Shown: in pieces, positions 1 to 24,134 of the stretch
Position numbering within the stretch: position 1 is the stretch's first letter
Layout: each line of letters begins with the position of its first letter
Assembly (NCBI RefSeq): GCF_003711205.1
Contig: NZ_CP031013.1
Location: 2,646,501 to 2,710,500 of the forward strand
DNA length: 64,000 nt
Reading direction: 5' to 3'
Source of the DNA: Polaromonas sp. SP1
GTDB taxonomy: Bacteria; Pseudomonadota; Gammaproteobacteria; Burkholderiales; Burkholderiaceae_C
Program-made: the position numbers and the translations under genes
Notes under the pieces: model-generated
What the model was told of the DNA's origin: nothing
What the model saw: only the letters and a program-made list of their open reading frames with translations
Databases searched by the model: none

Positions 1-1
1 G

Positions 2-355
2 CAAGGCGCCCACCAGCACGCCGTCGGCCGCGTGGCTTTATTGGGCGATGCCGCCCACCCGATGCGGCCCTACCTCGCACAAGGCGCCGGCATGGCGATC
101 GAAGACGCCGCCGAACTCGGCCACGCTTTAGCGCAAGCGCTGGACCCGGCCTTTGACGTGCCCACCATGCTGCAGCGCTACGCGCTCAACCGCTGGCAAC
201 GCAATGCACGCGTGCAGGCGCGCGCGCTGCGCAACGGGCAGATCTTTCATGCCGACGGCCTGCTGCGGTGGGGGCGTGATGCGTCCATGAAGCTGTTGGG
301 CGAGAGGCTGCTGGATATGCCCTGGCTCTATGGCGTCACGCCAAAAATATCCTGA
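2..355 (+). CDS. FAD-dependent monooxygenase, C-terminal part (5' end outside window)
   Basis: Only the last ~117 codons are present; the reading frame is open from base 2. The segment GDAAHPMRPYLAQGAGMAIED is the second FAD-binding motif (GD...P..GQG-type) of the salicylate hydroxylase / PHBH flavoprotein monooxygenase family, where it contacts the ribityl and pyrophosphate of FAD. It is followed by the usual helical C-terminus. Such enzymes hydroxylate aromatic rings using NAD(P)H and O2. The substrate cannot be told from this fragment. The stop TGA at 353-355 is followed closely by a REP-like hairpin that may end the transcript. Confidence 0.85.
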   Translation, partial: QGAHQHAVGRVALLGDAAHPMRPYLAQGAGMAIEDAAELGHALAQALDPAFDVPTMLQRYALNRWQRNARVQARALRNGQIFHADGLLRWGRDASMKLLGERLLDMPWLYGVTPKIS

Positions 356-435: not shown

Positions 436-554
436 CTTAAATTTCTTATGTTTCCGTCTCCGCCAAGACTACCGACTCTCTCCGCAAGGGGGGGGCGGTT
501 TTTCATACGAAACGCAGCAATAGGGGAAACGGTCTCGGTAGCAACAGCAGTCAT
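429..554 (-). CDS. Candidate small protein or leader peptide, 41 aa
   Basis: ATG at 554 is preceded by a GGAG Shine-Dalgarno 7 bases upstream, and 41 codons run to TAA at 431-429. The peptide begins MTAVATETVSPIAAFRMKN and ends in the basic stretch IRNLRK. It has no membrane segment and I recognise no family. Two strong hairpins with T-tracts lie upstream on the same strand, so any promoter should lie between about 555 and 665 or rely on readthrough. Its stop overlaps the REP-like hairpin. It could be a leader peptide, a small peptide precursor, or a chance ORF with a good ribosome site. Confidence 0.25.
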   Translation of the reverse strand: MTAVATETVSPIAAFRMKNRPPLAERVGSLGGDGNIRNLRK

Positions 555-666
555 ATGAATCTCCAAAGGAAGTTGATGAAGGAGGGAAGTTAAAAAACAT
601 CCTCTCGCTCGGGCTTCCTCGTTCCCCCGAGTAGGGGGCGGAGGGGGGTGCTGGTAGTTCAACAAG

Positions 667-691
667 AAAAAACCGGGATGACCCGGTTGCC
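667..691 (-). terminator. Hairpin terminator on - strand
   Basis: Read on the - strand, AACCGGG, loop TCAT, CCCGGTT is followed by TTTTTT. This is a compact 7-bp stem with a T-tract, typical of a rho-independent terminator. It lies just downstream of a second, larger hairpin with its own T-run, so the two act in tandem on transcripts coming from the cassette side. Confidence 0.6.
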
Positions 692-699
692 GCTGTATT

Positions 700-753
700 A
701 AAAATCCCCCCACAAGTGCCCCTCACACCGGGACGGGGTCTTGTGGGGGGATT
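700..753 (-). terminator. Long-stem hairpin terminator on - strand
   Basis: The 14-base arms AATCCCCCCACAAG and CTTGTGGGGGGATT are perfect reverse complements separated by about 23 bases. An inner CCCC/GGGG pairing sits in the loop, and on the - strand the structure is followed by a T-run (ATTTTTAA). It may block antisense transcription leaving the integron array, or be a structured RNA end. Confidence 0.5.
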
Positions 754-1056
754 CAGCTGCTAACGGGGCAGCCCGGTTTTTTCACAGCGGTAGGCCTGGC
801 GCCCGCAGCCGACGTGACACAAAGCGCAGCGACTGGCTCCAAAGGGTGCAGCCGGGCCGGGTTATAGGGAGCGATGGTCAAACGCAACGGAATCGGCTGT
901 TTGGGCTGCGCTCGTCCATATTGAGGCGGCGGTAACTACACTGTCCACCTAGAATCACTTGCGGGGTTTGGTCCCTTTTTTATCGACCTGAGTGAAACTC
1001 AAAATGAGCAATAAGTCTTTTAATAACAAGCACTTGGCTGGGTTTTCAGCGACCGC

Positions 1057-1113
1057 GTTATACCGCAGGCCCGATGTTATACCGCAGACCTTGCGGTATA
1101 CATTACGTTAGAC
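1057..1113. promoter_or_regulatory. Repeat-rich left boundary of the cassette array (attI-like position)
   Basis: GTTATACCGCAG occurs twice (1057-1068 and 1076-1087). GCGGTATAC at 1093-1101 is inverted relative to them, so TATACCGC/GCGGTATA can form a hairpin. The block ends in GTTAGAC (1107-1113), a perfect integron core site (GTTRRRY), four bases before the first cassette ATG. This is where an attI site or the end of an earlier attC would be. TATACC and TATACA hexamers could serve as -10 boxes, but no convincing -35 is seen. Confidence 0.4.
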
Positions 1114-1116
1114 CTC

Positions 1117-1509
1117 ATGAATACCGCTCTGCCAGATCAGGAGAAGGCGTTTCAGACAGCGCTCTCGCTGGACGAAGAGGGACGCTCGTCCGAGGCGTTG
1201 AAGGTTCTGGAGCCGCTCGCACTTCGCCGCGACAATCCGCGCTACCTCCTTGCCTACGCGCAGTGCCTAGTTCGCTCAGGCGCCGATTGGAAGGCCGCTG
1301 TAGATTGTTTGCGCGTGGCGCTCTCAATCGAACCCAAGTACCTTGAAGGCCCGTCGCGGCTTTTCCTTGCGGACCTTCTCGTTCAGAATGGGCGCAAGAA
1401 GGAGGCCCTTGAGCAATGGCGAATCGTCGCAAAGATGCCACCGGACGGGACTGGGTATGCGGCTGTACCCGACGAGGCGATCATTCGGTTGCGCGAACAT
1501 GAGGTCTAA
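1117..1509 (+). CDS. Cassette 1: TPR-repeat protein, 130 aa
   Basis: The protein is made of helix pairs resembling tetratricopeptide repeats, for example SLDEEGRSSEALKVLEPLA, YLLAYAQCLVRSGADWKAAVDCLRVAL and LADLLVQNGRKKEALEQWRIVA. TPR arrays are protein-binding scaffolds. No signal peptide or membrane segment is seen, so it should be cytoplasmic. The ATG lies 4 bases after the core site at 1107-1113, and the TAA stop (1507-1509) is part of R'' of attC1. As the first cassette it would be closest to any array promoter. Its partner is unknown. Confidence 0.7.
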   Translation: MNTALPDQEKAFQTALSLDEEGRSSEALKVLEPLALRRDNPRYLLAYAQCLVRSGADWKAAVDCLRVALSIEPKYLEGPSRLFLADLLVQNGRKKEALEQWRIVAKMPPDGTGYAAVPDEAIIRLREHEV

Positions 1510-1617
1510 CAGGTCGTTCGACTCGGACACGCACCGGCATTGCGCCGCGAAGCGTGCTGGTGAGCTTACGCCTCGCGGCGCAATGCCGGTGCGCGCCGGT
1601 CAACTCCGACGTTATGC
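1504..1617 (+). other. attC1 recombination site
   Basis: R'' GTCTAAC (1504-1510) and R' GTTATGC (1611-1617). The inner part holds a perfect 20-bp inverted repeat (1531-1550 with 1573-1592) around a 22-base loop, longer than in the other sites here. Its outer ends closely match those of attC13, suggesting both derive from one attC type with a different central arm. Confidence 0.85.
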
Positions 1618-1898
1618 AGCACCCTAAAGTGTCTCGGTTTCTGTACACCGCCTGGTTTCAGGACGCTCTCGTTGAACCAGACGACGAGGATTTCGAATGG
1701 CCGGCATGTTTTCTGGTGACGGCATCTTCGATGGAAGCCGCGCAACACTGGGGAGACCACCTGTCGGATTCGTTCAGTCGGCGCCGCGAAAGCGAGAGGT
1801 TCCTTCGGTCGAGCGTCGAGATTGCGACTGCGAGCACGCAAGATCTACCGGTAGTGGTCGATGGCTATGAGGCGACTGACGGAGAAATCGGGTGGTAG
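1614..1898 (+). CDS. Cassette 2: hypothetical acidic protein, 94 aa
   Basis: The start ATG (1614) lies inside the R' core of attC1 (GTTATGC), so the cassette junction supplies the start codon. The protein is soluble and acidic, with the segment WFQDALVEPDDEDFEWPACF and a helical SFSRRRESERFLRSS region. I do not recognise a family with certainty. About 43 untranslated bases follow before attC2. No Shine-Dalgarno is evident, so translation may depend on coupling with upstream transcription and translation. Confidence 0.6.
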   Translation: MQHPKVSRFLYTAWFQDALVEPDDEDFEWPACFLVTASSMEAAQHWGDHLSDSFSRRRESERFLRSSVEIATASTQDLPVVVDGYEATDGEIGW

Positions 1899-1941
1899 TC
1901 GCAGGTCCCAGCCACTCTCTGGCTGCGTTAGTGGCGGAATG

Positions 1942-2028
1942 GCATAACATGTCGCTCGACACGGAAACACACCCACAGAATGCGGCTTCGCCGCAATGTG
2001 TTGTGGCCCGGTCATCTTCACGTTAGAC
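1942..2028 (+). other. attC2 recombination site
   Basis: R'' GCATAAC (1942-1948), R' GTTAGAC (2022-2028), 87 bp. Arms CACA/TGTG and a central GCGGCTTCGCCGC hairpin. It belongs to the subtype shared with attC4, attC7 and attC8 (ATGTC..TCGACACGGA at the left, CCGGTCATCTTCACGTTA at the right). Confidence 0.85.
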
Positions 2029-2040
2029 CGCACAAGAGCC

Positions 2041-2298
2041 ATGTCCATTTCGCTCCTTCTTGCCATAGCCGGAACGCTCTGCGGGTTCTACTACTTCGGC
2101 CTGGGAATCGCCGCGGGAGGCCACTTACTCGATAAGGAGCGAAGTAAGTCGCCCGGCGAGCGGCTGCTCCTGACGACTTTCTTGTGGTCGATGACGCCTA
2201 GCGAGTTTTCGGATGAGGGTAAGAAAATATGCGTGCGCGCCAATTTCGTTCTCGTGGCGGCCTTGGCATGCTGGGTTGCGTGGGCGGTGTTCAAATGA
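2041..2298 (+). CDS. Cassette 3: small membrane protein, 85 aa
   Basis: The start is the ATG at 2041 (MSISLLLAIAGTLCGFYYFG); an earlier in-frame ATG would begin inside attC2 and is unlikely. Two hydrophobic segments (about residues 3-25 and 65-82) flank a charged middle part (LDKERSKSPGERLL), which suggests a helical-hairpin inner-membrane protein. No family is recognised. The stop TGA (2296-2298) lies 7 bases before R'' of attC3. Confidence 0.6.
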   Translation: MSISLLLAIAGTLCGFYYFGLGIAAGGHLLDKERSKSPGERLLLTTFLWSMTPSEFSDEGKKICVRANFVLVAALACWVAWAVFK

Positions 2299-2305
2299 GG
2301 AGCCG

Positions 2306-2392
2306 GCCTAACTGGTCGGTCAACGCGGACCCGCAGCTGAAGTTCGCGGCTTCGCCGCTTATGTTGCGGTCCGGTTACCTCCAACGTTAGAA
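2306..2392 (+). other. attC3 recombination site
   Basis: R'' GCCTAAC (2306-2312), R' GTTAGAA (2386-2392), 87 bp. It shares TCGGTCAACGCGGACCCGCA-like left and CCGGTTACCTCCAACGTTAG-like right halves with attC5, forming a second attC subtype in this array. The last R' base departs from the consensus pyrimidine. Confidence 0.8.
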
Positions 2393-2401
2393 GCATCGAG
2401 T

Positions 2402-2683
2402 ATGGTTGCTGAAATCGCAGTATTTCTTCAGTGCTTAGCGCGTGTCGCGATGGTATTTTTGGCGGCGTTCCTGGCTACTTCTTTATTAGGAGCGGATGTT
2501 GGAACAGTTTCTATAGTTATCGCATTAACCTTATCAGTCGCAGTTGTGTTCTTAACCATCAAAACCAAGCTGCCAATCTACCGTCAATTTGAACCTCATC
2601 GGGCGAGGCGCCTACTTATCTTTTGTACGGTTAGCGCTGTTGGTTGGGGGGTCTTTTTTGTGAAAGCCACGGGATGGTTCTAA
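2402..2683 (+). CDS. Cassette 4: small membrane protein, 93 aa
   Basis: Three hydrophobic segments (about residues 4-28, 33-52 and 70-90) are separated by the short basic loops KTKLPIYRQ and PHRARR. It is a likely inner-membrane protein without a signal peptide. The coding sequence is clearly richer in A/T than the core genes in the window, which supports foreign origin. The TAA stop lies inside R'' of attC4. Function unknown. Confidence 0.6.
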   Translation: MVAEIAVFLQCLARVAMVFLAAFLATSLLGADVGTVSIVIALTLSVAVVFLTIKTKLPIYRQFEPHRARRLLIFCTVSAVGWGVFFVKATGWF

Positions 2684-2764
2684 CATGCCAATCGACACGG
2701 ACCCACAACGCAATGAAGGCGGCTTCGCCGCGCATATTGTGGTCCGGTCATCTTCACGTTAGAT
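2678..2764 (+). other. attC4 recombination site
   Basis: R'' TTCTAAC (2678-2684) and R' GTTAGAT (2758-2764), 87 bp, with the central GGCGGCTTCGCCGC palindrome. Same subtype as attC2, attC7 and attC8. Confidence 0.85.
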
Positions 2765-2771
2765 TGCACGT

Positions 2772-3260
2772 ATGAGCATGGCGTTAGTCGTCCTTGGCTT
2801 GGTGGCGTGCGTTGCGGCCGTGGCTTTCGTTCGCCGTAGCAACCGGGCTAAGATTTTGCGGTACTTACGTGGGCGTGAGCCGTTGACGAATGAGCAGTTC
2901 GCTTCGATGTTTGCTTCCGCCCTCGAAGGCGAAGTGGGTGTCTCGCTACGTCGGCTCCTGGCGCCGTGGGTTAGCTTCGATGTTGCGCTGGTGCGGCCCT
3001 CGGATAGGTTTTGCGCCGACTTACTGCTTGCGGTGGAAGATGGAATGGACTCGAACGAGTATGTCGCATCCGTCGAGAAAGAATGGCGGATCGAACTGCC
3101 GGACGAAGAGGCCGCGAAGTTGCTCACCATTGAGCAACTTGCGAACGCAGTAGCTCGCCGCCTGAGTGGCCTGCAATCTAACTTGTCGCTCAACGCGGAC
3201 CCGCAATTGAAGAAGGCGGCTCCGCCGCTCCAGTTGCGGGCCGGTTATCTTCAACGTTAG
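2772..3260 (+). CDS. Cassette 5: membrane-anchored acyl-carrier-like protein, translated through its attC
   Basis: An N-terminal membrane anchor (about residues 4-20) is followed by a domain whose spacing resembles acyl carrier proteins: DLLLAVEDGMDSNEYVASVEK, then WRIELPDEEAAKLLTIEQLANAV. This matches the helix II/III pattern 'lg.DSl..velv..le.ef.IeipdE.a..l.Ti.dl...i'. Ser94 in MDSNEY is in the place of the phosphopantetheine serine, though the usual following Leu is Asn. No stop occurs before attC5; the frame continues across the whole site and ends at TAG in the R' core. About 27 C-terminal residues are therefore attC-encoded. Membrane tethering of such a domain is unusual. The ACP assignment is an inference from sequence pattern. 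Confidence 0.55.
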   Translation: MSMALVVLGLVACVAAVAFVRRSNRAKILRYLRGREPLTNEQFASMFASALEGEVGVSLRRLLAPWVSFDVALVRPSDRFCADLLLAVEDGMDSNEYVASVEKEWRIELPDEEAAKLLTIEQLANAVARRLSGLQSNLSLNADPQLKKAAPPLQLRAGYLQR

Positions 3261-3262
3261 GT
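3176..3262 (+). other. attC5 recombination site (coding)
   Basis: R'' ATCTAAC (3176-3182), R' GTTAGGT (3256-3262), 87 bp, same subtype as attC3. The R'' TAA is out of frame with the preceding gene, which reads through the site and stops at the TAG within R'. Confidence 0.85.
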
Positions 3263-3267
3263 CTCCT

Positions 3268-3633
3268 ATGTCAGCGATCTCTATGCGCCGTGTCCTGACC
3301 GTTACGGGCCCCATCGTGTTTGGGATGTGCATGGCCGGCCTTTCGTTCGTCGTCGCTACTTCGGAGTTGGAGGCGAGCACGGCGGATAAAGCAAAGCTCG
3401 TTCTGATTGGGAGCTCCTGCATCACTGTGTTTCTGCTGGCGTGTGTCATTGCCGTGTGGGCCTTTGCACGTATGTTCTCTGGGTTGGCGGCTGAAGACTG
3501 GACGCGGCTGCGTGAGGGAGGTGCCAGCTCACAGCCCAAAATCAGCGGGAGAATCCTTGCTGATGGAGCGCTCTTTGTCGCGGCCTGTCTCGCTGGGATA
3601 GTGGCCTTTGAGGTGCTTAAACGTGCAACGTAG
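3268..3633 (+). CDS. Cassette 6: membrane protein, 121 aa
   Basis: Three hydrophobic stretches (about residues 10-30, 44-68 and 98-117) and a polar loop (LAAEDWTRLREGGASSQPK) suggest a three-helix inner-membrane protein. The ATG lies 5 bases after R' of attC5, and the TAG stop just precedes R'' of attC6. No family is recognised. Confidence 0.6.
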   Translation: MSAISMRRVLTVTGPIVFGMCMAGLSFVVATSELEASTADKAKLVLIGSSCITVFLLACVIAVWAFARMFSGLAAEDWTRLREGGASSQPKISGRILADGALFVAACLAGIVAFEVLKRAT

Positions 3634-3691
3634 ACCTAACAGGCCGCTGCATCCGACCGCCTACGGCGTCGGCTGAGCGTCGGCGTTATAT
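3634..3691 (+). other. attC6 recombination site (short)
   Basis: R'' ACCTAAC (3634-3640) and R' GTTATAT (3685-3691), only 58 bp. The arms CCGACCGCC and GGCGTCGG form a short stem with almost no central loop. This is near the minimum length of known attC sites. Confidence 0.75.
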
Positions 3692-3694
3692 CTC

Positions 3695-4108
3695 ATGAAG
3701 ATCGCAGCGCACGGTTTGGGGCTTGAGCTCAGTCCGGTGAACGCCTTGGACGGAGAAGACTGGTGCTGCGTTCGTGTTCTCGCCGAGGTCGCCGGCTTTG
3801 AAGCAGACTTCGTGGCCTATCTGCAGGGAGCAGATCTAGTCAGATTCCGGGACAGCATCAATGCGGTGTACGAAGCGGTAGGGCAACCCGGTGAAGCAGT
3901 CCTTGGTAGTGCAGAGCCTGGGGTTTTGATCGTTCTTTCCATGGCGCGCCTCGGTGGTATCAGTGGCAAGTACAAGTTCGAGGGCGAATTCGTCGAAGGC
4001 GGCGCGCCGACCTTAATGGGTGGTTTTGAAATGGACCAAAGCTACTTGCCCGCTCTGTCGGATGGCATAGACCGCCTACTCGCGGAGTTGAAAGGCCATG
4101 AGACATAA
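3695..4108 (+). CDS. Cassette 7: WapI/DUF6228-type immunity-like protein, 137 aa
   Basis: The pattern W..V.V.AEV.GFEADF..YL...DL.RF.D.I...YEA, then LGSAEPGVLIVLSMARLG-type strands, then FEMDQSYLPALSDGIDRLL fits the WapI-type immunity family. The DQSYL near the C-terminus corresponds to the conserved D(Q)TYL of those proteins. Such proteins neutralise polymorphic toxins from the same or rival cells. No toxin gene is next to it, so here it would be an orphan, protective cassette. The protein is soluble and acidic. The TAA stop lies within R'' of attC7, and ATG follows R' of attC6 by 3 bases. The family call is from memory of the motif pattern. Confidence 0.5.
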   Translation: MKIAAHGLGLELSPVNALDGEDWCCVRVLAEVAGFEADFVAYLQGADLVRFRDSINAVYEAVGQPGEAVLGSAEPGVLIVLSMARLGGISGKYKFEGEFVEGGAPTLMGGFEMDQSYLPALSDGIDRLLAELKGHET

Positions 4109-4189
4109 CATGTCAATCGACACGGATCCACAGCAGCACAAGGCGGCTTCGCCGCAATGTGTTGTGGCCCGGTCATCTTCACGTTATCC
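4103..4189 (+). other. attC7 recombination site
   Basis: R'' ACATAAC (4103-4109), R' GTTATCC (4183-4189), 87 bp. Nearly identical to attC2 along its length, including the central GGCGGCTTCGCCGC. Confidence 0.85.
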
Positions 4190-4204
4190 AGCAAAGGATG
4201 CGCT

Positions 4205-4660
4205 GTGCTGAGTGGCTGGCTCCGTAATTTGCACGCGGCACTCCGAGGTGGCACCCCGGGATTCAGCGCTGCCGAGAGCAGAGTTCTTACCTTCGTCTTG
4301 GATCGTTTGGCCGAGCCAGATCGTTCCACCCTCGCGGCCCAAATTGGCGCGGTAGCTTTGGTTCAACGGCAGCACCCCGGTCGATTGGTTGTCGTGTACT
4401 ACCGTCGCTCCAACACTGTTCCCACGCTTCCTTATCCTGGGTATGAGTACTGCCTTGCGAAGGTGAAGTACATGTCACGCGGCCGATCGCGCATCACTTC
4501 GCTCGTCCTGCATGATGGAAGGTTCATGACCTTCGAGCGAAATGTTCCTGAACTAGAAAGCGACATCGAATCTCTTGTTGCAGTCGAAATACATCCTGGA
4601 ATCCAGCCCTCTGTGGCGGAGGAAATTGATCATGCGGAGCATGCGAGCACTGCCGGATAA
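4205..4660 (+). CDS. Cassette 8: hypothetical protein, 151 aa
   Basis: The most likely start is GTG at 4205, preceded by AAAGGA five bases upstream. The upstream in-frame ATG at 4157 lies inside attC7 and would encode attC sequence, and the ATG at 4198 is in another frame. The protein has a helical N-terminus followed by a beta-rich part (RLVVVYYRRSN, YCLAKVKYM, RITSLVLHDGRFMTFERN). It is soluble and unrecognised. The TAA stop is in R'' of attC8. Confidence 0.55.
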   Translation: MLSGWLRNLHAALRGGTPGFSAAESRVLTFVLDRLAEPDRSTLAAQIGAVALVQRQHPGRLVVVYYRRSNTVPTLPYPGYEYCLAKVKYMSRGRSRITSLVLHDGRFMTFERNVPELESDIESLVAVEIHPGIQPSVAEEIDHAEHASTAG

Positions 4661-4738
4661 CATGTCAATCGACACGGAGCCACAACAGAAGGCGGCTTCG
4701 CCGCAAGGTGTTGCGACCCGGTCATCTTTACGTTAAAG
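4655..4738 (+). other. attC8 recombination site
   Basis: R'' GGATAAC (4655-4661), R' GTTAAAG (4732-4738), 84 bp. Same subtype as attC2, attC4 and attC7 but 3 bases shorter in the loop region. Confidence 0.85.
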
Positions 4739-4741
4739 AGC

Positions 4742-5119
4742 ATGACAGACCCATTTCTCGTTAATCGACCGTTTCTTACTGACGTCTGCCCAGCCTTCGC
4801 GCGCGCGGTGGCGAATGGCTGCAGGGTGATCGGTCGATCGGACCTTGCGGAGGAAATAGTGCGCGTGGTCCTCCCACCTCAGCTGATTGCGGGAGCTCCA
4901 GATTCCTATTCTTTTCTGGCGTATCCTGTTCCTCGTCTTACGCTTGAGCAGCGCCAACTTCTCGAAGTCCGAGACTTCGAACGTATTCAAGTGCCGGTCG
5001 GAGCAGGCACAGTCAGCCTAGAGCTTGATGTTTTCGGAAAGATCGGATGGTTCTACGTAGACATGCTCTCAGAGCATTACGAGGCCGTTGCAAGTGGAGC
5101 GCAGCAGCATGCACTTTAA
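4742..5119 (+). CDS. Cassette 9: hypothetical protein, 125 aa
   Basis: A soluble acidic protein with the segments CPAFARAVANGCRVIGRSDLAEEIVRVVLP, YSFLAYPVPRLTLEQRQLLEVRDFERIQVP and DVFGKIGWFYVDMLSEHYEAV. Layout and length resemble small immunity-type proteins, but no family can be named. ATG follows R' of attC8 by 3 bases, and the TAA stop overlaps R'' of attC9. Confidence 0.55.
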   Translation: MTDPFLVNRPFLTDVCPAFARAVANGCRVIGRSDLAEEIVRVVLPPQLIAGAPDSYSFLAYPVPRLTLEQRQLLEVRDFERIQVPVGAGTVSLELDVFGKIGWFYVDMLSEHYEAVASGAQQHAL

Positions 5120-5200
5120 CCCGTCGGCCCACACGGACAAGCAACTTCAGGTTGCCACTTCGCGGCGGGTGTTGCTTGCCGTTGGCCTCCAACGTTAAAC
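5114..5200 (+). other. attC9 recombination site
   Basis: R'' CTTTAAC (5114-5120), R' GTTAAAC (5194-5200), 87 bp. The inner arms CAAGCAAC and GTTGCTTG are perfect reverse complements. The central sequence differs from the two common subtypes. Confidence 0.85.
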
Positions 5201-5204
5201 CGCG

Positions 5205-5579
5205 ATGAGAACGAGCACTGCACGCAAGCCAAGTACCGGGAGGTGGATCGCGGCGTTCGTTGCGCTAGTCGCCTTTGCGCTCGTGCCCTCGAAGGCGTGC
5301 GCCTGCCTTGAGACATACCAAATTTCACAGCTGCGCATCGTGCTTTCGGTCTTATTGCTTTTGATACTCGCGGTAGTTGCACTTTCCCCGCCTGGACGGA
5401 GCGCAGTCTGGGGTGCGGGAGCTGGCCTCGTAGCGTGTGTCTCAAGCGCTGTAGCCTTGGCCATTGGCTCCTATAGCCTGCCGATTGCAGCCGTAGTTCT
5501 TGTGTTGCCGCTTCTGGCTGTGGTCTTGTTCGCCGCGTGGCATCGGCTTCGAGCTGGGAGGAGTGCGAGGGTGGTTTAA
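5205..5579 (+). CDS. Cassette 10: multi-helix membrane protein, 124 aa
   Basis: After a basic N-terminus (MRTSTARKPSTGR) come about four hydrophobic helices (roughly residues 14-30, 44-61, 68-88 and 91-113). The short loop SKACACLETYQIS after the first helix holds three cysteines and could be periplasmic. Possibly a signal peptide plus three helices. Family unknown. The TAA stop lies in R'' of attC10. Confidence 0.6.
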   Translation: MRTSTARKPSTGRWIAAFVALVAFALVPSKACACLETYQISQLRIVLSVLLLLILAVVALSPPGRSAVWGAGAGLVACVSSAVALAIGSYSLPIAAVVLVLPLLAVVLFAAWHRLRAGRSARVV

Positions 5580-5630
5580 CATGTCATTCGAACGGACCAA
5601 CAACGGCGTTCGCCCACTTTCACATTAACC
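5574..5630 (+). other. attC10, short and with a defective R' core
   Basis: R'' GTTTAAC (5574-5580) is intact, but the right core reads ATTAACC (5624-5630) instead of GTTRRRY, so the invariant G at the recombination point is A. The site is 57 bp. Left and right remnants (ATGTCATTCGAACGGACC, CACTTTCACATTA) look like the common subtype after an internal deletion. Confidence 0.6.
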
Positions 5631-5633
5631 ATT

Positions 5634-5996
5634 ATGAAGCGCTGCCCCGAGGTCGATCAGCTCAATGGGTTCTTTGGAGGTACACACGTTCAGGTGTACC
5701 CAGATGCGCCGGAAGAGTACAACACCCACCGTTTTGAGCGCGTTGCAGGCAATGAGCGGATAGTCTGTGAGGTACTTCCGGCGGAATACGAACTTCGGTT
5801 CATGTGGTGGGTGTCTGGCCGCCTCACCCTTGACCTTAAACTTCAAGGCGTGCAGTCCTTAGACATTTCGCGTTCTGCTGGAGATGAGACACTTATTGGG
5901 AGCGTTGATGCTGATGGTTTGCGTCAACTATTCAAACTTCAGGTGAGTCCAACTGTATGCCTTCAATGGTCGTCCTCTTCCTACTTCGGCCAATGA
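5634..5996 (+). CDS. Cassette 11: hypothetical protein, 120 aa
   Basis: A soluble beta-rich protein (VCEVLPAEYELRFMWWVSGRLTLDLKLQGVQSLDIS...). Size and strand pattern are reminiscent of polymorphic-toxin immunity proteins, but this is only a resemblance. ATG lies 3 bases after the defective R' of attC10. The TGA stop is 1 base before R'' of attC11. If attC10 cannot recombine, cassettes 10 and 11 would move as one unit. Confidence 0.55.
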   Translation: MKRCPEVDQLNGFFGGTHVQVYPDAPEEYNTHRFERVAGNERIVCEVLPAEYELRFMWWVSGRLTLDLKLQGVQSLDISRSAGDETLIGSVDADGLRQLFKLQVSPTVCLQWSSSSYFGQ

Positions 5997-5997
5997 T

Positions 5998-6084
5998 GGT
6001 TAACAGGTTTCTCGTCACGGACAAGCAGCACCAAAATACCGCTTCGCTGCCAATGCTGCCTGCCGGACAGCGCCAACGTTAGAG
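5998..6084 (+). other. attC11 recombination site
   Basis: R'' GGTTAAC (5998-6004) and R' GTTAGAG (6078-6084), 87 bp. The arms GACAAGCAGCA and TGCTGCCTGCC pair around a central CCGCTTCGCTG. Confidence 0.8.
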
Positions 6085-6090
6085 ATCAGG

Positions 6091-6480
6091 ATGCAGCGCT
6101 ACACGAAAGCCGCGCTTGCCCTTCTGGGCCTCTTGGTTCTCGGCTGGGGCGCAGTAAAGCTTGTCTATGAGCCTTTCATGACCAGGCAGCTGATTGCCCT
6201 AATGGCGGAGGAATCGCGCAAGATCGAGGCCTTCAACGCGGTTGGAAGGCTTGAGACCTACGATTCATTAAGCACTCTTCTTCAAAAGGGGTGTTTACGC
6301 GAAGCGGCGCAGCTCATCGAGATTCAGCAGAGCCTCCTTTTGACGGGTATCGCGCACGACATGGAACAAAGCCCGGAGGTGTCCAAGGTTGTTTCCGGCC
6401 GAAATGCGCAAGTAGCCGAACGCGCGCGTGCTGAGGCTACCAACCGAAACCCACCCCGGGGGTACACGCCATGCCGCTGA
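6091..6480 (+). CDS. Cassette 12: single-pass membrane or exported helical protein, 129 aa
   Basis: The N-terminus MQRYTKAALALLGLLVLGWG is a signal anchor or signal peptide. The rest is helical and charged (IALMAEESRKIEAFNAVGRLETYDSLSTLLQ, EAAQLIEIQQSLLLTGIAHDMEQ), so it is probably periplasmic or membrane-tethered. It contains one Cys at the head of a helix (KGCLREAA) and one at the end. No family is recognised. Confidence 0.55.
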   Translation: MQRYTKAALALLGLLVLGWGAVKLVYEPFMTRQLIALMAEESRKIEAFNAVGRLETYDSLSTLLQKGCLREAAQLIEIQQSLLLTGIAHDMEQSPEVSKVVSGRNAQVAERARAEATNRNPPRGYTPCR

Positions 6481-6481
6481 T

Positions 6482-6562
6482 CTCTAGCTTGGCAGTCGAT
6501 GCGGACGTCCTCGCTGCGCGCTTTCGCGCGCCATCGGCCCGCCGGTCACTTCTACGTTTGAC
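6482..6562 (+). other. attC12, degenerate cores
   Basis: R'' reads CTCTAGC (6482-6488) instead of RYYYAAC, and R' reads GTTTGAC (6556-6562). GCGCGC/GCGCGC arms with a CTTTC loop form the inner stem; total 81 bp. Probably a weak or inactive site, although the GTT triplet is kept. Confidence 0.6.
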
Positions 6563-6565
6563 CTC

Positions 6566-6907
6566 ATGATCTTTGCCGTTGCCACCGATGAATGCACGCT
6601 AACCGCCTTCGAAAGCGAGGCCGCCGCGGTCGTCGCGTGCGAAGGCCTCGACGTTGAAGCTGCAGACTGGCTCTTTTGGGACGACTGTGGCAGGCCGCTT
6701 GAGCCACTGTTCTCCATCCCAAACAAACGAGGATTTTTCATGGTGCAGAACGGCGTCTACTCCCTTGTGCCGGCCACGCCAAATCACCACGCAGATCTCG
6801 ACGAAGCGCTAGACGAAGTGCGCAATTTCGAGTCACCCGCACCATTCAACAGTGCCGAAGGTGTGCGCGCATACCTCGCCCGCAAAGGAGGCAGCAATGA
6901 GGTCTAA
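6566..6907 (+). CDS. Cassette 13: hypothetical acidic protein, 113 aa
   Basis: A soluble acidic protein, starting MIFAVATDECTLTAFESEAA and containing DWLFWDDCGRPLEPLFSIPN. It resembles small conserved unknown proteins often met as integron cassettes; no function is known to me. The TAA stop overlaps R'' of attC13, and ATG follows attC12 by 3 bases. Confidence 0.55.
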   Translation: MIFAVATDECTLTAFESEAAAVVACEGLDVEAADWLFWDDCGRPLEPLFSIPNKRGFFMVQNGVYSLVPATPNHHADLDEALDEVRNFESPAPFNSAEGVRAYLARKGGSNEV

Positions 6908-6964
6908 CAGGTCGTTCGACGCGGACACGCAGCAGCATCGCGCCGGTCAACTCCAACGTTAGGC
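6902..6964 (+). other. attC13 recombination site
   Basis: R'' GTCTAAC (6902-6908), R' GTTAGGC (6958-6964), 63 bp. The outer ends AGGTCGTTCGACnCGGACACGC and GCGCCGGTCAACTCC almost repeat those of attC1, but the long 20-bp stem of attC1 is absent. Confidence 0.85.
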
Positions 6965-6979
6965 GCCAGGGCCTCGCTT

Positions 6980-7315
6980 ATGTTCGAAGTCATCGCGTAC
7001 ATAGCCATCCTTGTGGGGTTGGCGGCTGGCTTCCTGTGGGGCATTGAGCGCATTGCTAAGCGCATCGGCGGCCGCAATACATGGTTGCTGTTTCTTGTCG
7101 GCCTTCCTCTCGTTGCAGGTGTGATGGTCGCATGGCTCAACAGAACTGAGTTGGCCTGGTGGCAGTTAGTTCTGTACCCACTGGTGGCGCCATTCGTTGC
7201 CTCAGCTGTTCTGCTATTGGCATACGCTGCTGTCAATCCGTACGCGCTCATCGCCTTGGTCGGGGCGTTGTGCCGGCGCGCACGCGAACGAATCTTTCAC
7301 GCGGGTAAACGGTAG
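6980..7315 (+). CDS. Cassette 14: membrane protein, 111 aa
   Basis: Three hydrophobic helices (about residues 3-20, 34-52 and 61-90) are separated by basic loops (ERIAKRIGGRN) and followed by a basic tail (RRARERIFHAGKR), suggesting an inner-membrane protein with a cytoplasmic C-terminus. It is the last cassette in the array and unrecognised. Confidence 0.6.
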   Translation: MFEVIAYIAILVGLAAGFLWGIERIAKRIGGRNTWLLFLVGLPLVAGVMVAWLNRTELAWWQLVLYPLVAPFVASAVLLLAYAAVNPYALIALVGALCRRARERIFHAGKR

Positions 7316-7321
7316 CATGGC

Positions 7322-7399
7322 GCCTAGCATGTTGGTCAACCGAACACGCTCTGGTCGGCCTCGCCTCCTGGCGCGTGCCGATTACCGCCAACGTTAGTG
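7322..7399 (+). other. attC14, last site of the array
   Basis: R'' GCCTAGC (7322-7328) departs from the AAC consensus; R' GTTAGTG (7393-7399) keeps GTTAG only. The inner arms are imperfect. The TAA stop of the recombinase gene on the - strand is read from the TTA inside this R', so the gene and the end of the site overlap. Confidence 0.65.
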
Positions 7400-7993
7400 C
7401 TCTGAAAAGATCTCGCATTGTCCGTTGGCTCTATGCAAGGCACGTTTAATGCTGCTTATGTGAGTTCCAAAGCGCCGCGCGACTGCAGACTTCGTGGCTT
7501 GTCCGCTTAGAACCAAACGCACAGCCTCACTTTCTTCCGCTGGCGCCATAGCCCTAGGCCTGCCGGGCTTAGAGCCTCGTCGCATCGCCGCGTGGAGTCC
7601 GGCCCTTGTGCGTTCACGAATCATTTCCAGTTCGAACTCGGCGAAGGCGCCAACGATCTGCATCATCATCCGACCCGCTGCGGTGCTGGTATCGATGGTT
7701 TCGGTAAGACTGCGAAACTGGGCGCCTTGGGCATTTATCCGGTCGAGAATGATCAGTAGATGTTTTAGAGACCGTGCAAGGCGGTCCAACTTGTAGACAA
7801 CCAAGATATCTCCGGGTCGAAGTAGCGTTAGCAGTTTCTCTAACTCAGCGCACTTGGTGTCGCCCCCTGATCGTTTCTCTTCAAAAATATGTTGAACCCC
7901 CGCTTTTCGCAAAGCGTCATATTGGGTGTGGAGTTCTTGTTCTTGCGTGCTAACACGCGCATATCCGTAAATCAATCTCTCCCTCTCAGACAT
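7394..7993 (-). CDS. Serine recombinase (resolvase/DNA invertase family)
   Basis: The N-terminal catalytic domain carries YGYARVSTQEQ with Ser15 as the predicted nucleophile and Arg13, followed by YKLDRLARSLKHLL and IDTSTAAGRMMMQIVGAFAEFE. This is the complete active-site pattern of small serine recombinases. The E-helix (ERTRAGLHAAMRRG) leads into a C-terminal helix-turn-helix (about residues 155-190, KSAVARRFGTHISSIKRAL). At 199 aa it is full length. Such enzymes resolve cointegrates or invert segments at paired sites. The gene converges on the cassette array and its stop lies in the R' of attC14. The upstream region has small palindromes (8005-8017 and GCCTAGGC near 8026) that could be crossover sites. 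No transposase is adjacent. Confidence 0.9.
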   Translation of the reverse strand: MSERERLIYGYARVSTQEQELHTQYDALRKAGVQHIFEEKRSGGDTKCAELEKLLTLLRPGDILVVYKLDRLARSLKHLLIILDRINAQGAQFRSLTETIDTSTAAGRMMMQIVGAFAEFELEMIRERTRAGLHAAMRRGSKPGRPRAMAPAEESEAVRLVLSGQATKSAVARRFGTHISSIKRALHRANGQCEIFSEH

Positions 7994-8139: not shown

Positions 8140-9000
8140 TTACAGATCCGTGCGCAGCTTCCATATCTCCGGAAACAGCACCACATCCAGCATCTTGCGC
8201 AAATAACTCACGCCACCAGTGCCGCCGGTGCCGCGCTTGAAGCCGATCACGCGTTCCACGGTCGTCACGTGACGAAAGCGCCAAAGCCGGAAGGCATCTT
8301 CCAGGTCGGTGAGTTCTTCGCCGAGCTGGTACAGGTCCCAGTACTTCTTGGGGTCGCGGTAGACCACCAGCCAGGCCTGCTCGACGGCGTCGCTTTCTTC
8401 ATAGCCTTGGGTCCAGTCGCGCTGCGTGTGGCTGGCGGGTACGGCCAGGCCGCGGCGGGCCAGCAGGCGCAGGGCTTCGTCATAGAGTGATGGCGCTTCG
8501 TATGCGGCTTGCACCTGCGCGAGCAGGTCGGGCCTGTGCGCGTGGGGTTTGAGCATGGAGGCGTTTTTGTTGCCGAGTGCAAATTCAATGCAGCGGTACT
8601 GTGCGCTTTGAAAGCCGCTGGAGTTGGCGAGGTAGGGGCGGATGGCGCTGTATTCGGGCGGCGTCATGGTGGCCAGCACGTCCCAGGCGTGCACCAGCTG
8701 CTCCATGATGCGGCTCACACGGGCCAGCATCTTGAAGGCGCCGCCGAGCTCGTCTTTCGCCACGTTGGCAATCGCGCCGCGCAACTCGTGCAGCATCAGC
8801 TTCATCCAGAGTTCACTGGTCTGGTGCTGGATGATGAAGAGCATCTCGTTGTGGTCGGGCGAGAGCGGCTTTTGGGCGCTGAGGATGGCGTCGAGCTGCA
8901 GGTAGTCGCCATAGCTCATGGACTTGCTGAAGTCGAGCTGCGCTTTTTCATCGCGCACGATGTCTGCGGGCGCTTGGGGTTTGTTGTTGTCGTTGTTCAT
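8140..9000 (-). CDS. kynA: Tryptophan 2,3-dioxygenase
   Basis: It opens the indole ring of L-tryptophan with O2 to give N-formylkynurenine, the first step of the kynurenine pathway, using heme. Family hallmarks: [19 protein letters not shown] (distal His about 59), RRGLAVP, and [21 protein letters not shown] with the axial heme His and the TGG substrate loop. Start chosen at ATG 9000 (MNNDNN), which overlaps the kynU stop as TGATG; an upstream in-frame start would extend far into kynU. Length 286 aa is normal. Third gene of the kynB-kynU-kynA operon. Confidence 0.95.
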
Positions 9001-10292
9001 CAGGTGACCGCGTGCTTCTGGTTGAATTCGGGTTTTTTCCATTCGGCGGTTTCAAGCACCTGCTTTAATTGTTCGACGGCGTTCCAGACGTCTTCAAAAC
9101 CGATGTAGAGCGGCGTGAAGCCGAAGCGCAGGATGTCGGGCATACCCGTTCGTCCTGAGCCTGTCGAAGGATCACCCGCGCGGAAGTCGCCGATCACGCC
9201 GCGTGCGATCAGCGCCTGCACGATGGCGTAGGCGCCTTCGGTTCTCGTTAAGCAGACCTGCGAGCCGCGTTGGGCGTGTTCGCGCGGTGTCGCCAGGCCC
9301 AGGCCGTGGCCCGCGCAGCGTTCTTCGACGAGCTGGATAAACAGGTCGGTGAGCGCCAGCGATTTTTTGCGCAGGGCCTGCATGCCGCCCAGCGGCTCTG
9401 CGGCCAGCACGGTGTCCAGCCCGCACTCCAGCGCCGTCATGCTCAGGATGGGCTGGGTGCCGCAGAGATAACGTGAGATGCCGGCTGCGGGCTTGTAGTC
9501 GGGCGTGAATTCAAATGGCGCGGCATGGCCCCACCAGCCGGCCAGCGGTTGCCAGAAGCGGTCGGCGTGTTTGGGGTTGACCCAGACAAAGGCCGGCGCG
9601 CCGGGGCCGCCGTTGAGGTATTTGTAGCCGCAGCCGATGGAGAAATCCGCCTTGGCGGCGTTCAGCGCCACCGGCACGGCGCCTGCGCTGTGGGCCAGGT
9701 CCCAGACGGTGAGTGCGCCGGCTGCGTGGGCTGCGGCGGTGACGGCGGCCATGTCGTGCATGGCGCCGGTGCGGTAGTTCACGTGGGTCAGCATCAGCAC
9801 GGCGACCTCGGCGGTGAGCGCCGCGGTAATCCCTTCGGGCTCGACGAGCTGCAGGCGATAACCGCGCTCGCGGCACAGCGCTTCGGCGATGTAGAGATCG
9901 GTCGGGAAGTTGCTGCGTTCGCTGACGATGATTTTGCGCGCGGGTGCGTCCTGCGCGGCGATGTGCAGTGCGGCGCTCAGCACCTTGTAGAGGTTGATGG
10001 AGGTGCTGTCGGTCGCCACCACTTCGCCGGGGGCTGCGCCTATCAGCTGCGCGATCTTGTTGCCCAGACGCTGCGGCAGCTCAAACCAGCCGGCGCTGTT
10101 CCACGAACGGATCAGGCCCTGGCCCCATTCGGCCGTGACCGCCTCGGCGACGCGGGCGGCGGCGGTGGTGGGCAGCACGCCCAGCGAGTTGCCGTCAAGG
10201 TAGATCACGCCTTCGGGCAGGGTGAATTGCTGGCGCAGCGCGCGCAGCGGGTCTTGCGCATCCAGGGCGCGGCAGTCTTGCAAAGTGGTCAT
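9000..10292 (-). CDS. kynU: Kynureninase
   Basis: A PLP enzyme that cleaves kynurenine to anthranilate and alanine. [14 protein letters not shown] holds the Schiff-base lysine; [11 protein letters not shown] and the [11 protein letters not shown] strand are typical of the family. At 430 aa it is slightly long because residues about 374-382 (DPSTGSGRT) interrupt the usual [14 protein letters not shown] segment. That peptide is the translation of a dispersed palindromic repeat (9147-9172). The insertion keeps the frame and the motif after it ([20 protein letters not shown]) is intact, so activity is likely kept. 12 bases separate it from kynB. Confidence 0.94.
9147..9172. repeat. Dispersed palindromic repeat inserted in kynU
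   Basis: CGTTCGTCCTGAGCCTGTCG followed by AAGGAT matches a short repeat widespread between genes of Burkholderiales and other Proteobacteria. Arms TTCGTCC/CCTGAG and CTGTCGAAGG allow partial pairing. Here it is within kynU, in frame, adding about a dozen residues. Confidence 0.7.
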
Positions 10293-23093: not shown

Positions 23094-24134
23094 TTAGCTG
23101 ACGGTGACGGCCGCGCCGTCGCCTTTGGAGGCGATCATGCCGATCTCGTAGACCTGCTCACCTGCGTCGCGCAGGGTTTTGGCCGTGGCCTGGGCGTTGG
23201 CGGCGTCTACCACCACCACCATGCCGATGCCGTTGTTGAAGGTGCGGTTCATCTCGAAGTCGTCGATGCCGGCGGTTTCTTGCAGCCAGGCGAACAGCTC
23301 GGTTTGCGGCCAGCTGCCCTTTTTGAGGTGGGCGGCCGTGCCTTCGGGCAGTACGCGGGGGATGTTTTCGAGCAGGCCGCCGCCGGTGATGTGGGCCAGC
23401 GCCTTGATCGGGTGGGCAGCCAGCGCGGCCAGCACGTTCTTGACGTACAGGCGGGTGGGCTCCATCAGGGCTTGTTTGAAGGGTTTGCCGTCCAGCGTGG
23501 CGGGGGCGTTGCCGGCCGCGCGTTCGATGCATTTGCGCACCAGGCTGAAACCGTTGGAATGCACGCCGCTGCTGGCCAGGCCCAGCACCACGTCGCCGGG
23601 TTTCACGTCCTTGCCGGTCAGGATCTTGGATTTTTCAACGGCGCCGACGGCAAAGCCCGCCAGGTCGTATTCGCCGGCCGGGTACATGCCGGGCATCTCA
23701 GCGGTTTCGCCGCCGATCAGCGCGCAGCCGCTGAGCTCGCAACCCCTGGCGATGCCGCCGACCACGGCCGCTGCCGTGTCCACGTCCAGCTTGCCGCAGG
23801 CGAAATAGTCAAGGAAGAAAAGCGGCTCGGCGCCCTGCACCAGCACGTCGTTAACGCTCATGGCCACCAGGTCGATGCCGACGGTGTCGTGCATCTGCCA
23901 TTCAAACGCCAGCTTGAGCTTGGTGCCCACGCCGTCGGTGCCGCTGACCAGCACGGGCTCTTTGTAGCGCTTGGGCACTTCAAACAGGGCGCCAAAGCCG
24001 CCGATGCCCGCCAGCACGCCCTCGCGCATGGTTTTTTTGGCCAGCGGCTTGATGCGTTCGACCAGCGCGTCGCCCGCGTCGATGTCGACGCCCGCGTCTT
24101 TGTAGCTCAGGGGGGAGGGGGAAGAGGTGGTCAT
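23094..24134 (-). CDS. purM: Phosphoribosylformylglycinamidine cyclo-ligase
   Basis: Fifth step of purine synthesis: ATP-dependent ring closure to aminoimidazole ribotide. [50 protein letters not shown] and [17 protein letters not shown] are PurM motifs. Start ATG 24134 gives the usual 346 aa; the longer frame lacks family similarity. It is divergent from the AI-2E-type permease. Confidence 0.96.

Follow-up and report, generated by a model that had tools for sequence, protein, structure and literature searches.

A cassette array in Polaromonas sp. SP1 is probably an integron that kept its attI site without its integrase gene

INTRODUCTION

Integron cassette arrays that have no integrase gene are detected through their attC sites, so it is hard to tell whether they arose by loss of the integrase, by translocation or by off-target insertion. 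The definition of these clusters of attC sites lacking integron integrases (CALINs) rests on attC alone in the published text covered here, which comprises portions of each of the papers cited in this work. In Xanthomonas, the integron platform has been progressively inactivated, and CALINs occupy conserved chromosomal positions (PMC12444791). A CALIN of the Shewanella prophage M16-3 has its own attI, and a complete integron lies elsewhere in the same prophage (PMC9892861). In class 1 integrons, attI1 is spanned by ORF-11, a short open reading frame (ORF) that receives its stop codon from the first cassette and helps the translation of that cassette (PMC8876359), and the attI-tailed cassettes of mobile integrons are reported to be inserted like ordinary cassettes (PMC12901181). 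Here, we analyze a cassette array in the complete genome of Polaromonas sp. SP1 (one contig of 4,507,493 bases, completeness 100). The window is the whole stretch of 64,000 nucleotides around it (positions 2,646,501 to 2,710,500 of NZ_CP031013.1), and coordinates below are window positions unless the genome is named.

The array resembles a CALIN in its 14 attC sites, all in one direction, and in having no integrase nearby or over the cut-off anywhere in the genome, but it differs from the published definition as covered here in that it keeps its own attI and a leader ORF. A recognizable attI makes the origin of an integrase-less array testable. The first-pass annotation of this DNA had offered either a CALIN or a broken chromosomal integron; we prefer the broken integron because the array still begins at a recognizable attI. 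We consider it very likely that the array is an integron without its integrase gene in which attI was kept.

RESULTS

Fourteen cassettes lie head to tail in one direction

The array opens at the crossover G (1107) and closes with the last R′ box (7393). The 14 unidirectional ORF-attC units noticed from the letters alone were found again as 14 one-ORF cassettes arranged head to tail (1108-7393):

Cassette 1, 1108..1611, + strand: ORF 1117-1509, TPR protein; attC S1
Cassette 2, 1612..2022, + strand: ORF 1614-1898; attC S2
Cassette 3, 2023..2386, + strand: ORF 2041-2298; attC S3; homologue in locus L155 (57% over 84 aa)
Cassette 4, 2387..2758, + strand: ORF 2402-2683; attC S4
Cassette 5, 2759..3256, + strand: ORF 2772-3260, running through its attC; attC S5; likeness to acyl carrier proteins below the cut-off
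Cassette 6, 3257..3685, + strand: ORF 3268-3633; attC S6
Cassette 7, 3686..4183, + strand: ORF 3695-4108, WapI-like immunity domain; attC S7
Cassette 8, 4184..4732, + strand: ORF 4205-4660; attC S8
Cassette 9, 4733..5194, + strand: ORF 4742-5119; attC S9
Cassette 10, 5195..5624, + strand: ORF 5205-5579; attC S10, mutated crossover ATTAACC
Cassette 11, 5625..6078, + strand: ORF 5634-5996; attC S11
Cassette 12, 6079..6556, + strand: ORF 6091-6480; attC S12, R″ box AGC
Cassette 13, 6557..6958, + strand: ORF 6566-6907; attC S13
Cassette 14, 6959..7393, + strand: ORF 6980-7315; attC S14, R″ box AGC

The cassettes measure 364-549 nt, and each contains one ORF of 85-162 aa behind a 5′ untranslated region (5′ UTR) of 2-21 nt, giving a coding share of 82%. 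All 14 attC sites have the same orientation, where a CALIN takes at least two attC sites in an array. Model R1, trained on the window's own 14 sites and matching them by construction, scored them at 29.9-93.1 bits, and its next best match in the window reached 11.6 bits. Model R3, made from 123 matches collected in 70 other loci and containing no window site, also found 14 of 14, at 32.5-83.5 bits; it is not fully independent, because R1 had been used to collect its members, of which at least two are a single site in the overlapping loci L142 and L160. An attC model search had been proposed as a check on the array, with recovery of fewer than half of the sites as the outcome that would speak against it, and every site was recovered. 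The next best R3 match in the window (20.9 bits, 23980-24062) is distant from the array and is probably due to chance.

Across the genome, each model returned 14 rows, namely 13 window sites (S6 was missed) and one site at genome positions 2,923,899-2,923,984, with 150 of 5430 candidates scored for R1 and 150 of 9849 for R3, a procedure that could overlook further weak sites. When the bottom strands were folded as single-stranded DNA, z ranged from -0.26 to -8.13, with 10 of the 14 sites at or below -1.76 and S10-S13 above -1. The crossover of S10 departs from GTTRRRY, and the R″ boxes of S12 and S14 read AGC instead of AAC. An ungapped search by complementarity of the R and L boxes recovered one of the 14 sites (S13), plus chance pairs, at the threshold used, because the L boxes carry extrahelical bases, and Rfam gave no match in the window at the gathering threshold.

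The early impression that the products are mostly of unknown function was right, as Pfam scores above the gathering threshold were obtained only for cassettes 1 (TPR repeats) and 7 (WapI-like immunity domain). PADLOC had no match for the 10 proteins given to it, nine of the 14 cassette proteins and the neighboring resolvase, and NCBIfam was applied to 10 of the 14. Among the loci fetched from other genomes (1.6 Mb, the own-genome loci being left out), homologues at E ≤ 1e-4 were found for cassettes 3, 5 and 10 only; the match of cassette 5 covers 29 aa, where its ORF runs through attC.

The array begins at an attI site with a leader ORF

Three features mark the left end of the array (fetched loci carry L numbers and genomes G numbers throughout):

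attI, 1057..1113, + strand: crossover G at 1107; 75-79% identical to the attI beside an intact intI in L028 and L033
Leader mini-ORF, 1004..1111, + strand: 35 codons, open, overlapping attI; the first cassette completes its stop codon
Conserved 5′ part of the integrase-less attI unit, 905..980, + strand: small hairpin, CCTAGAATC box, and GCGGGGTTTGG box near the lost intI start (alignments by eye)

Judged by homology, 1057-1113 is the attI site that a complete integron would have. Positions 1057-1117 align with the region just upstream of an intact intI in G001 (79% over 61 nt) and G024 (75% over 69 nt), the IntI match of these two starting 177 nt upstream (176-177 nt in intI-bearing sites). 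The window attI and its upstream region together are 74% identical over 163 nt to L107 of G010, and the aligned attI sites share the pattern GTTAnACCGCAG, TTGCGG, ATTACGTTARRC. By eye, the homology of the window stops near the intI start codon, at the GCGGGGTTTGG box, where relatives have GCCGGGTTTCAT, which would place the breakpoint of an intI loss near the start of the gene.

A -10-like box is conserved by eye at the 5′ boundary of attI units. About 25 nt upstream of the CCTAGAATC box, the window (905-960) and several integrase-less attI units have a small hairpin whose stems differ yet remain complementary; it is weak in the window copy.

No integron integrase over the cut-off is encoded in the genome

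The first-pass annotation had seen no intI within 64 kb and had suggested looking for one elsewhere. With the integron integrase profile TIGR02249 (cut-off 265 bits), no protein of the complete genome passed, upstream of the array or anywhere else; the best stretch scored 81.9 bits, and the whole protein that contains it 114.7 bits. This protein passes the cut-off for XerD; the other two recombinases that gave weak matches are a XerC-like protein (325.2 bits, cut-off 335.15) and a phage-type integrase with an arm-type DNA-binding domain. The array thus has no integron integrase nearby, as in a CALIN, and lacks the profile-matching intI of a complete integron. Among 87 genomes of the genus, TIGR02249 passed the cut-off in 13. 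A search of 72,556 plasmid records with window positions 900-1114 gave no match.

attI units without an adjoining integrase are dispersed in the genus and family

Searching the same 87 genomes with window positions 935-1114 gave 52 matches beyond its own, in 34 genomes including its own; 40 were fetched, two lay inside loci already in the set, and 10 were not fetched. None of the 40 loci has an intact reverse intI just upstream, four of them being cut by contig ends less than 1 kb upstream (L159, L172, L175, and L176), beyond which an intI could lie. Fragments of intI remain upstream in four others (L158, L165, L168, and L188). attC sites follow downstream in 27 of the 40; of 64 attC matches in these loci, 63 were downstream of attI, none in the wrong orientation.

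An attI model built from the sequences of 41 sites led to 18 further loci (L195-L212), 12 of which have attC downstream in the correct orientation by our own reading. At E ≤ 0.01, the model matched 56 of the 87 genus genomes and 103 of 300 genomes of the family sample (58 of 115 genera); we call matches strong at E ≤ 1e-9 (E for one genome, the family limit being about the same); weaker ones may be chance. Beside at least 7 of the 82 strong matches listed for the genus, a reverse TIGR02249 match starts 74-79 nt upstream (four full-length, three fragments), and adding the four fragments above brings any integrase sequence to at least 11 of 82. Outside the genus, at least 11 of the 103 strong matches listed have a reverse TIGR02249 match, at 76-205 nt; seven of these 103 rows come from six genomes (G162, G191, G200, G246, G270, and G344) whose TIGR02249 matches were counted without position, so a partner is possible. 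These adjacency counts are lower bounds that depend on the integrase matches listed, and the complementary counts, 75 of 82 for the genus and 92 of 103 for the family, are upper bounds for strong attI matches with no listed integrase match beside them.

The own genome gave three matches to the attI model. Besides the window, L193 (genome position 3,243,048) has the crossover CTT instead of GTT and one or two decayed cassettes, and L194 (around 2,923,500) has a weak attI match of 17.1 bits followed by a cassette with the one extra attC site of the genome; we infer that L194 is the third match.

Among the dispersed units, five (L146, L153, L159, L177, and L183) are integrase-less attI sites at apparently one chromosomal locus in five genomes, going by the upstream flank as compared by eye, and the divergent gene of L146 reads by eye as a desuccinylase-like protein. 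Directly behind attI, and reading in the direction of the cassettes, L163 and L171 have a gene for a tyrosine recombinase with about 30% identity to IntI. A motif GTTGAACTAAACCGC...CGCGGTGG directly follows attI or a truncated intI in L038, L040, L159, L163, and L171, as an inverted repeat pair in L038, and may represent an insertion element directed at integron sites.

How attI may have spread without intI

Several arrays have more than one attI: three within 4 kb in L206 (2341-6086), and two each in L198 (3015-5982), L208 (2055-2875), and L145. The second unit of L198 closes a cassette and, by eye, includes a remnant of the intI N-terminus, and in L202 (2679-2767), attI is flanked by attC sites on either side. 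Such arrangements are what would be expected if recombination had occurred at attI instead of attC and cassettes ending in attI had been inserted elsewhere, in keeping with the mobile-integron cassettes that end in all or part of an attI (PMC12901181). By analogy, these cassettes offer a way for attI to spread without intI. As the account of the window, we hold this to be possible though not the likelier course, as one attI was found there and its left boundary is formed by parB and tRNA remnants, not by a cassette end; it is compatible with an integron that lost its integrase, and the two do not exclude each other.

A LexA-type box, CTGT-N8-ACAG, is exact at -120/-121 in five of seven intI-bearing sites. 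Of 43 intI-less sites, three have the exact box at -120 (L158 and L165, both with intI fragments, and L169), four are one mismatch off (L161, L162, and L178 at -120, L191 at -101), and 36 are two to three mismatches off at best, the window included with a best of three. A leader start preceded by a Shine-Dalgarno (SD) motif lies in frame with the cassette crossover at 22 of the 43, versus 3 and 4 in the other frames. As far as these sequence comparisons tell, the attI core and the leader ORF are better preserved than the LexA-type box at intI-less sites.

The framed leaders would also suit a trans system, in which dispersed attI sites are working satellites filled by one IntI that is encoded elsewhere in the genome or transferred in. 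Four genomes (G001, G024, G052, and G057) have an intact intI and at least one further attI locus without intI, and in G057, the core of the intI-less attI (L173) is nearly equal to that of its intI-borne attI. Set against this are the lack of any intI over the cut-off in the genome of the window and the mismatched LexA-type boxes at 36 of 43 sites; further, TIGR02249 finds nothing at E ≤ 1e-40 in 57 of 103 attI-positive family genomes, and the presence of attI and of intI was not positively associated in the family sample (odds ratio 0.74, p 0.23). We find a trans system unlikely as the explanation of the array. An equally doubtful extension is that, in Polaromonas and its family, attI with its leader ORF would be a self-standing cassette platform, scattered through each genome in several copies that lack an integrase of their own, maintained for cassette expression, and refilled only by IntI acting in trans.

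Insertion at a chance secondary site, by which the array would be a displaced cassette cluster (a CALIN in the narrow sense) and never a separate integron, has a precedent in the attG insertion mentioned in the text available from two papers (PMC12444791 and PMC12901181), but a secondary site would not share about 150 nt of homology with attI and its upstream region, as seen with L107, which contradicts this reading and makes it highly improbable.

The array sits in a resolvase-bearing insertion

The placement of the array between an FAD monooxygenase gene and the kyn genes, as first described, was borne out, and the following features surround it:

FAD monooxygenase gene, 3′ end, 1..355, + strand: left chromosomal flank; Pfam FAD_binding_3; near kynA without an array in relatives (L127 and L128)
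Last 13 nt of tRNA-Ser and terminator, 453..503, + strand: left insertion edge; 92% identical to genome positions 4258476-4258526, the 3′ end of tRNA-Ser(gct) and the downstream stretch
parB-like remnant, 504..554, - strand: about 16 codons, with the same start as the 362-aa ORF of L141
Region upstream of parB, 555..866, no strand assigned: repeated in the genus, with 80-97% identity in L141-L145
Serine resolvase gene, 7394..7993, - strand: abuts the last attC; Pfam Resolvase, 1.1e-42
kynA, tryptophan 2,3-dioxygenase, 8140..9042, - strand: right chromosomal flank; Pfam Trp_dioxygenase

The matches to the FAD monooxygenase and kynA are 260 nt (L127) and 106 nt (L128) apart in relatives, versus 7.8 kb in the window, and the array thus lies inside DNA inserted between a pair of genes that adjoin each other in relatives. 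The 362-aa ORF of L141 belongs to the ParB family (TIGR00180 and PF02195 over cut-off). Relatives of the resolvase, 84-93% identical, occur in three Polaromonas records, one match covering residues 109-199 only. The parB-like gene, its upstream region, and the resolvase occur together with other cargo in L141, L142, and L143. In L145, the upstream region, two attI units, attC, and a resolvase remnant follow one another in the order of the window and adjoin tRNA-Ser, and the parB upstream region is near tRNA-Ser in L148 too. Among the loci inspected, attI is combined with the parB-resolvase island only in the window and in L145. Because this module recurs and, in L145, comes with attI and tRNA-Ser, our data suggest that a tRNA-Ser-targeting island carried the array.

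In Polaromonas, parB, its upstream region, and the serine resolvase form a recurrent module whose cargo varies (L141-L145 and L148, parB being seen in L141-L143). The interval between the FAD monooxygenase gene and kynA seems to be an insertion hot spot because it holds 3-15 kb in several relatives (L105, L106, and L116-L119); the attC model had no match in L105 and L106.

In Tn402-type transposons, the order is attI, cassettes, resolvase. We considered a Tn402-like remnant for the same order here; tniA, tniB, and tniQ are missing next to the resolvase, where kynA is the following gene, and a parB/resolvase island fits better.

DISCUSSION

The first-pass reading of these letters is supported, although it had missed the attI, the resolvase gene, the truncated parB-like gene, the tRNA-Ser fragment, and the two decayed attI loci elsewhere in the genome. 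For an integron that lost its integrase gene, we propose that IntI once captured cassettes at attI (position 1107) and that intI later disappeared, with the break falling close to its start codon and attI, the leader ORF, and the array being spared. Expression of the leading cassettes would start at a promoter that precedes attI, and the leader ORF would aid their translation; the 5′ UTRs of only 2-21 nt fit a dependence of the cassettes on such a leader. The array would now be frozen unless IntI came from outside. The unit was probably moved to this place by the resolvase-bearing insertion and not by IntI, because L145, in a second Polaromonas genome, repeats the order of leader, attI, cassette, attC, and resolvase remnant beside tRNA-Ser. 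In the genus at large, many attI units have probably outlived their integrases or become separated from them. This order of events is our reconstruction; the decay of the LexA-type box also suggests a sequence of steps.

Several observations weigh against this proposal. All 14 cassette ORFs are open and the attC crossover is mutated in one site only, so the loss of the integrase may be recent, or an outside IntI may still be acting, since a relic that died long ago should show more decay. The leader ORF of the window has no SD-preceded start with the motif set used. Positions 400-1200 gave no sigma-70 promoter match, and the -10-like box is separated from the leader ORF by a terminator-like stem (963-975; 6 terminator-like sites found versus 1.2 expected); both results argue against strong transcription from this region. 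If it is true that the leader ORF was selected after the loss of intI, the expression part of the integron would outlive the recombination part.

CALINs, and one CALIN with its own attI, are already known, while the scale of attI dispersal and the retained leader look new. We found no title or abstract on dispersed integrase-less attI in the literature on integrons of Polaromonas, Comamonadaceae, and Burkholderiales, within a coverage that left out most subscription journals.

Compared with known systems, the leader described here resembles ORF-11 in that it spans attI and has its stop codon supplied by the first cassette, and differs from it, in the published portion covered, in its greater length (20 to 37 codons among the examples listed) and in its presence at intI-less sites, its function being predicted (PMC8876359). 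The attI units that stand as cassette tails within the arrays of L198, L206, and L145 are like the attI-type cassettes of mobile integrons, but those were described, in the text accessible, from class 1 and 2 integrons, whereas the units here belong to genomes of chromosomal type with no intact intI adjoining (PMC12901181). The CALINs of Xanthomonas are defined by attC, and a retained attI or leader ORF is not described in the portion of that paper available, unlike the situation here (PMC12444791). In the Shewanella M16-3 CALIN, an array lacking intI likewise opens with attI; as covered here, it is one case, whereas Polaromonas and its family have dozens of attI loci, and the genome of the window has no integrase over the cut-off (PMC9892861).

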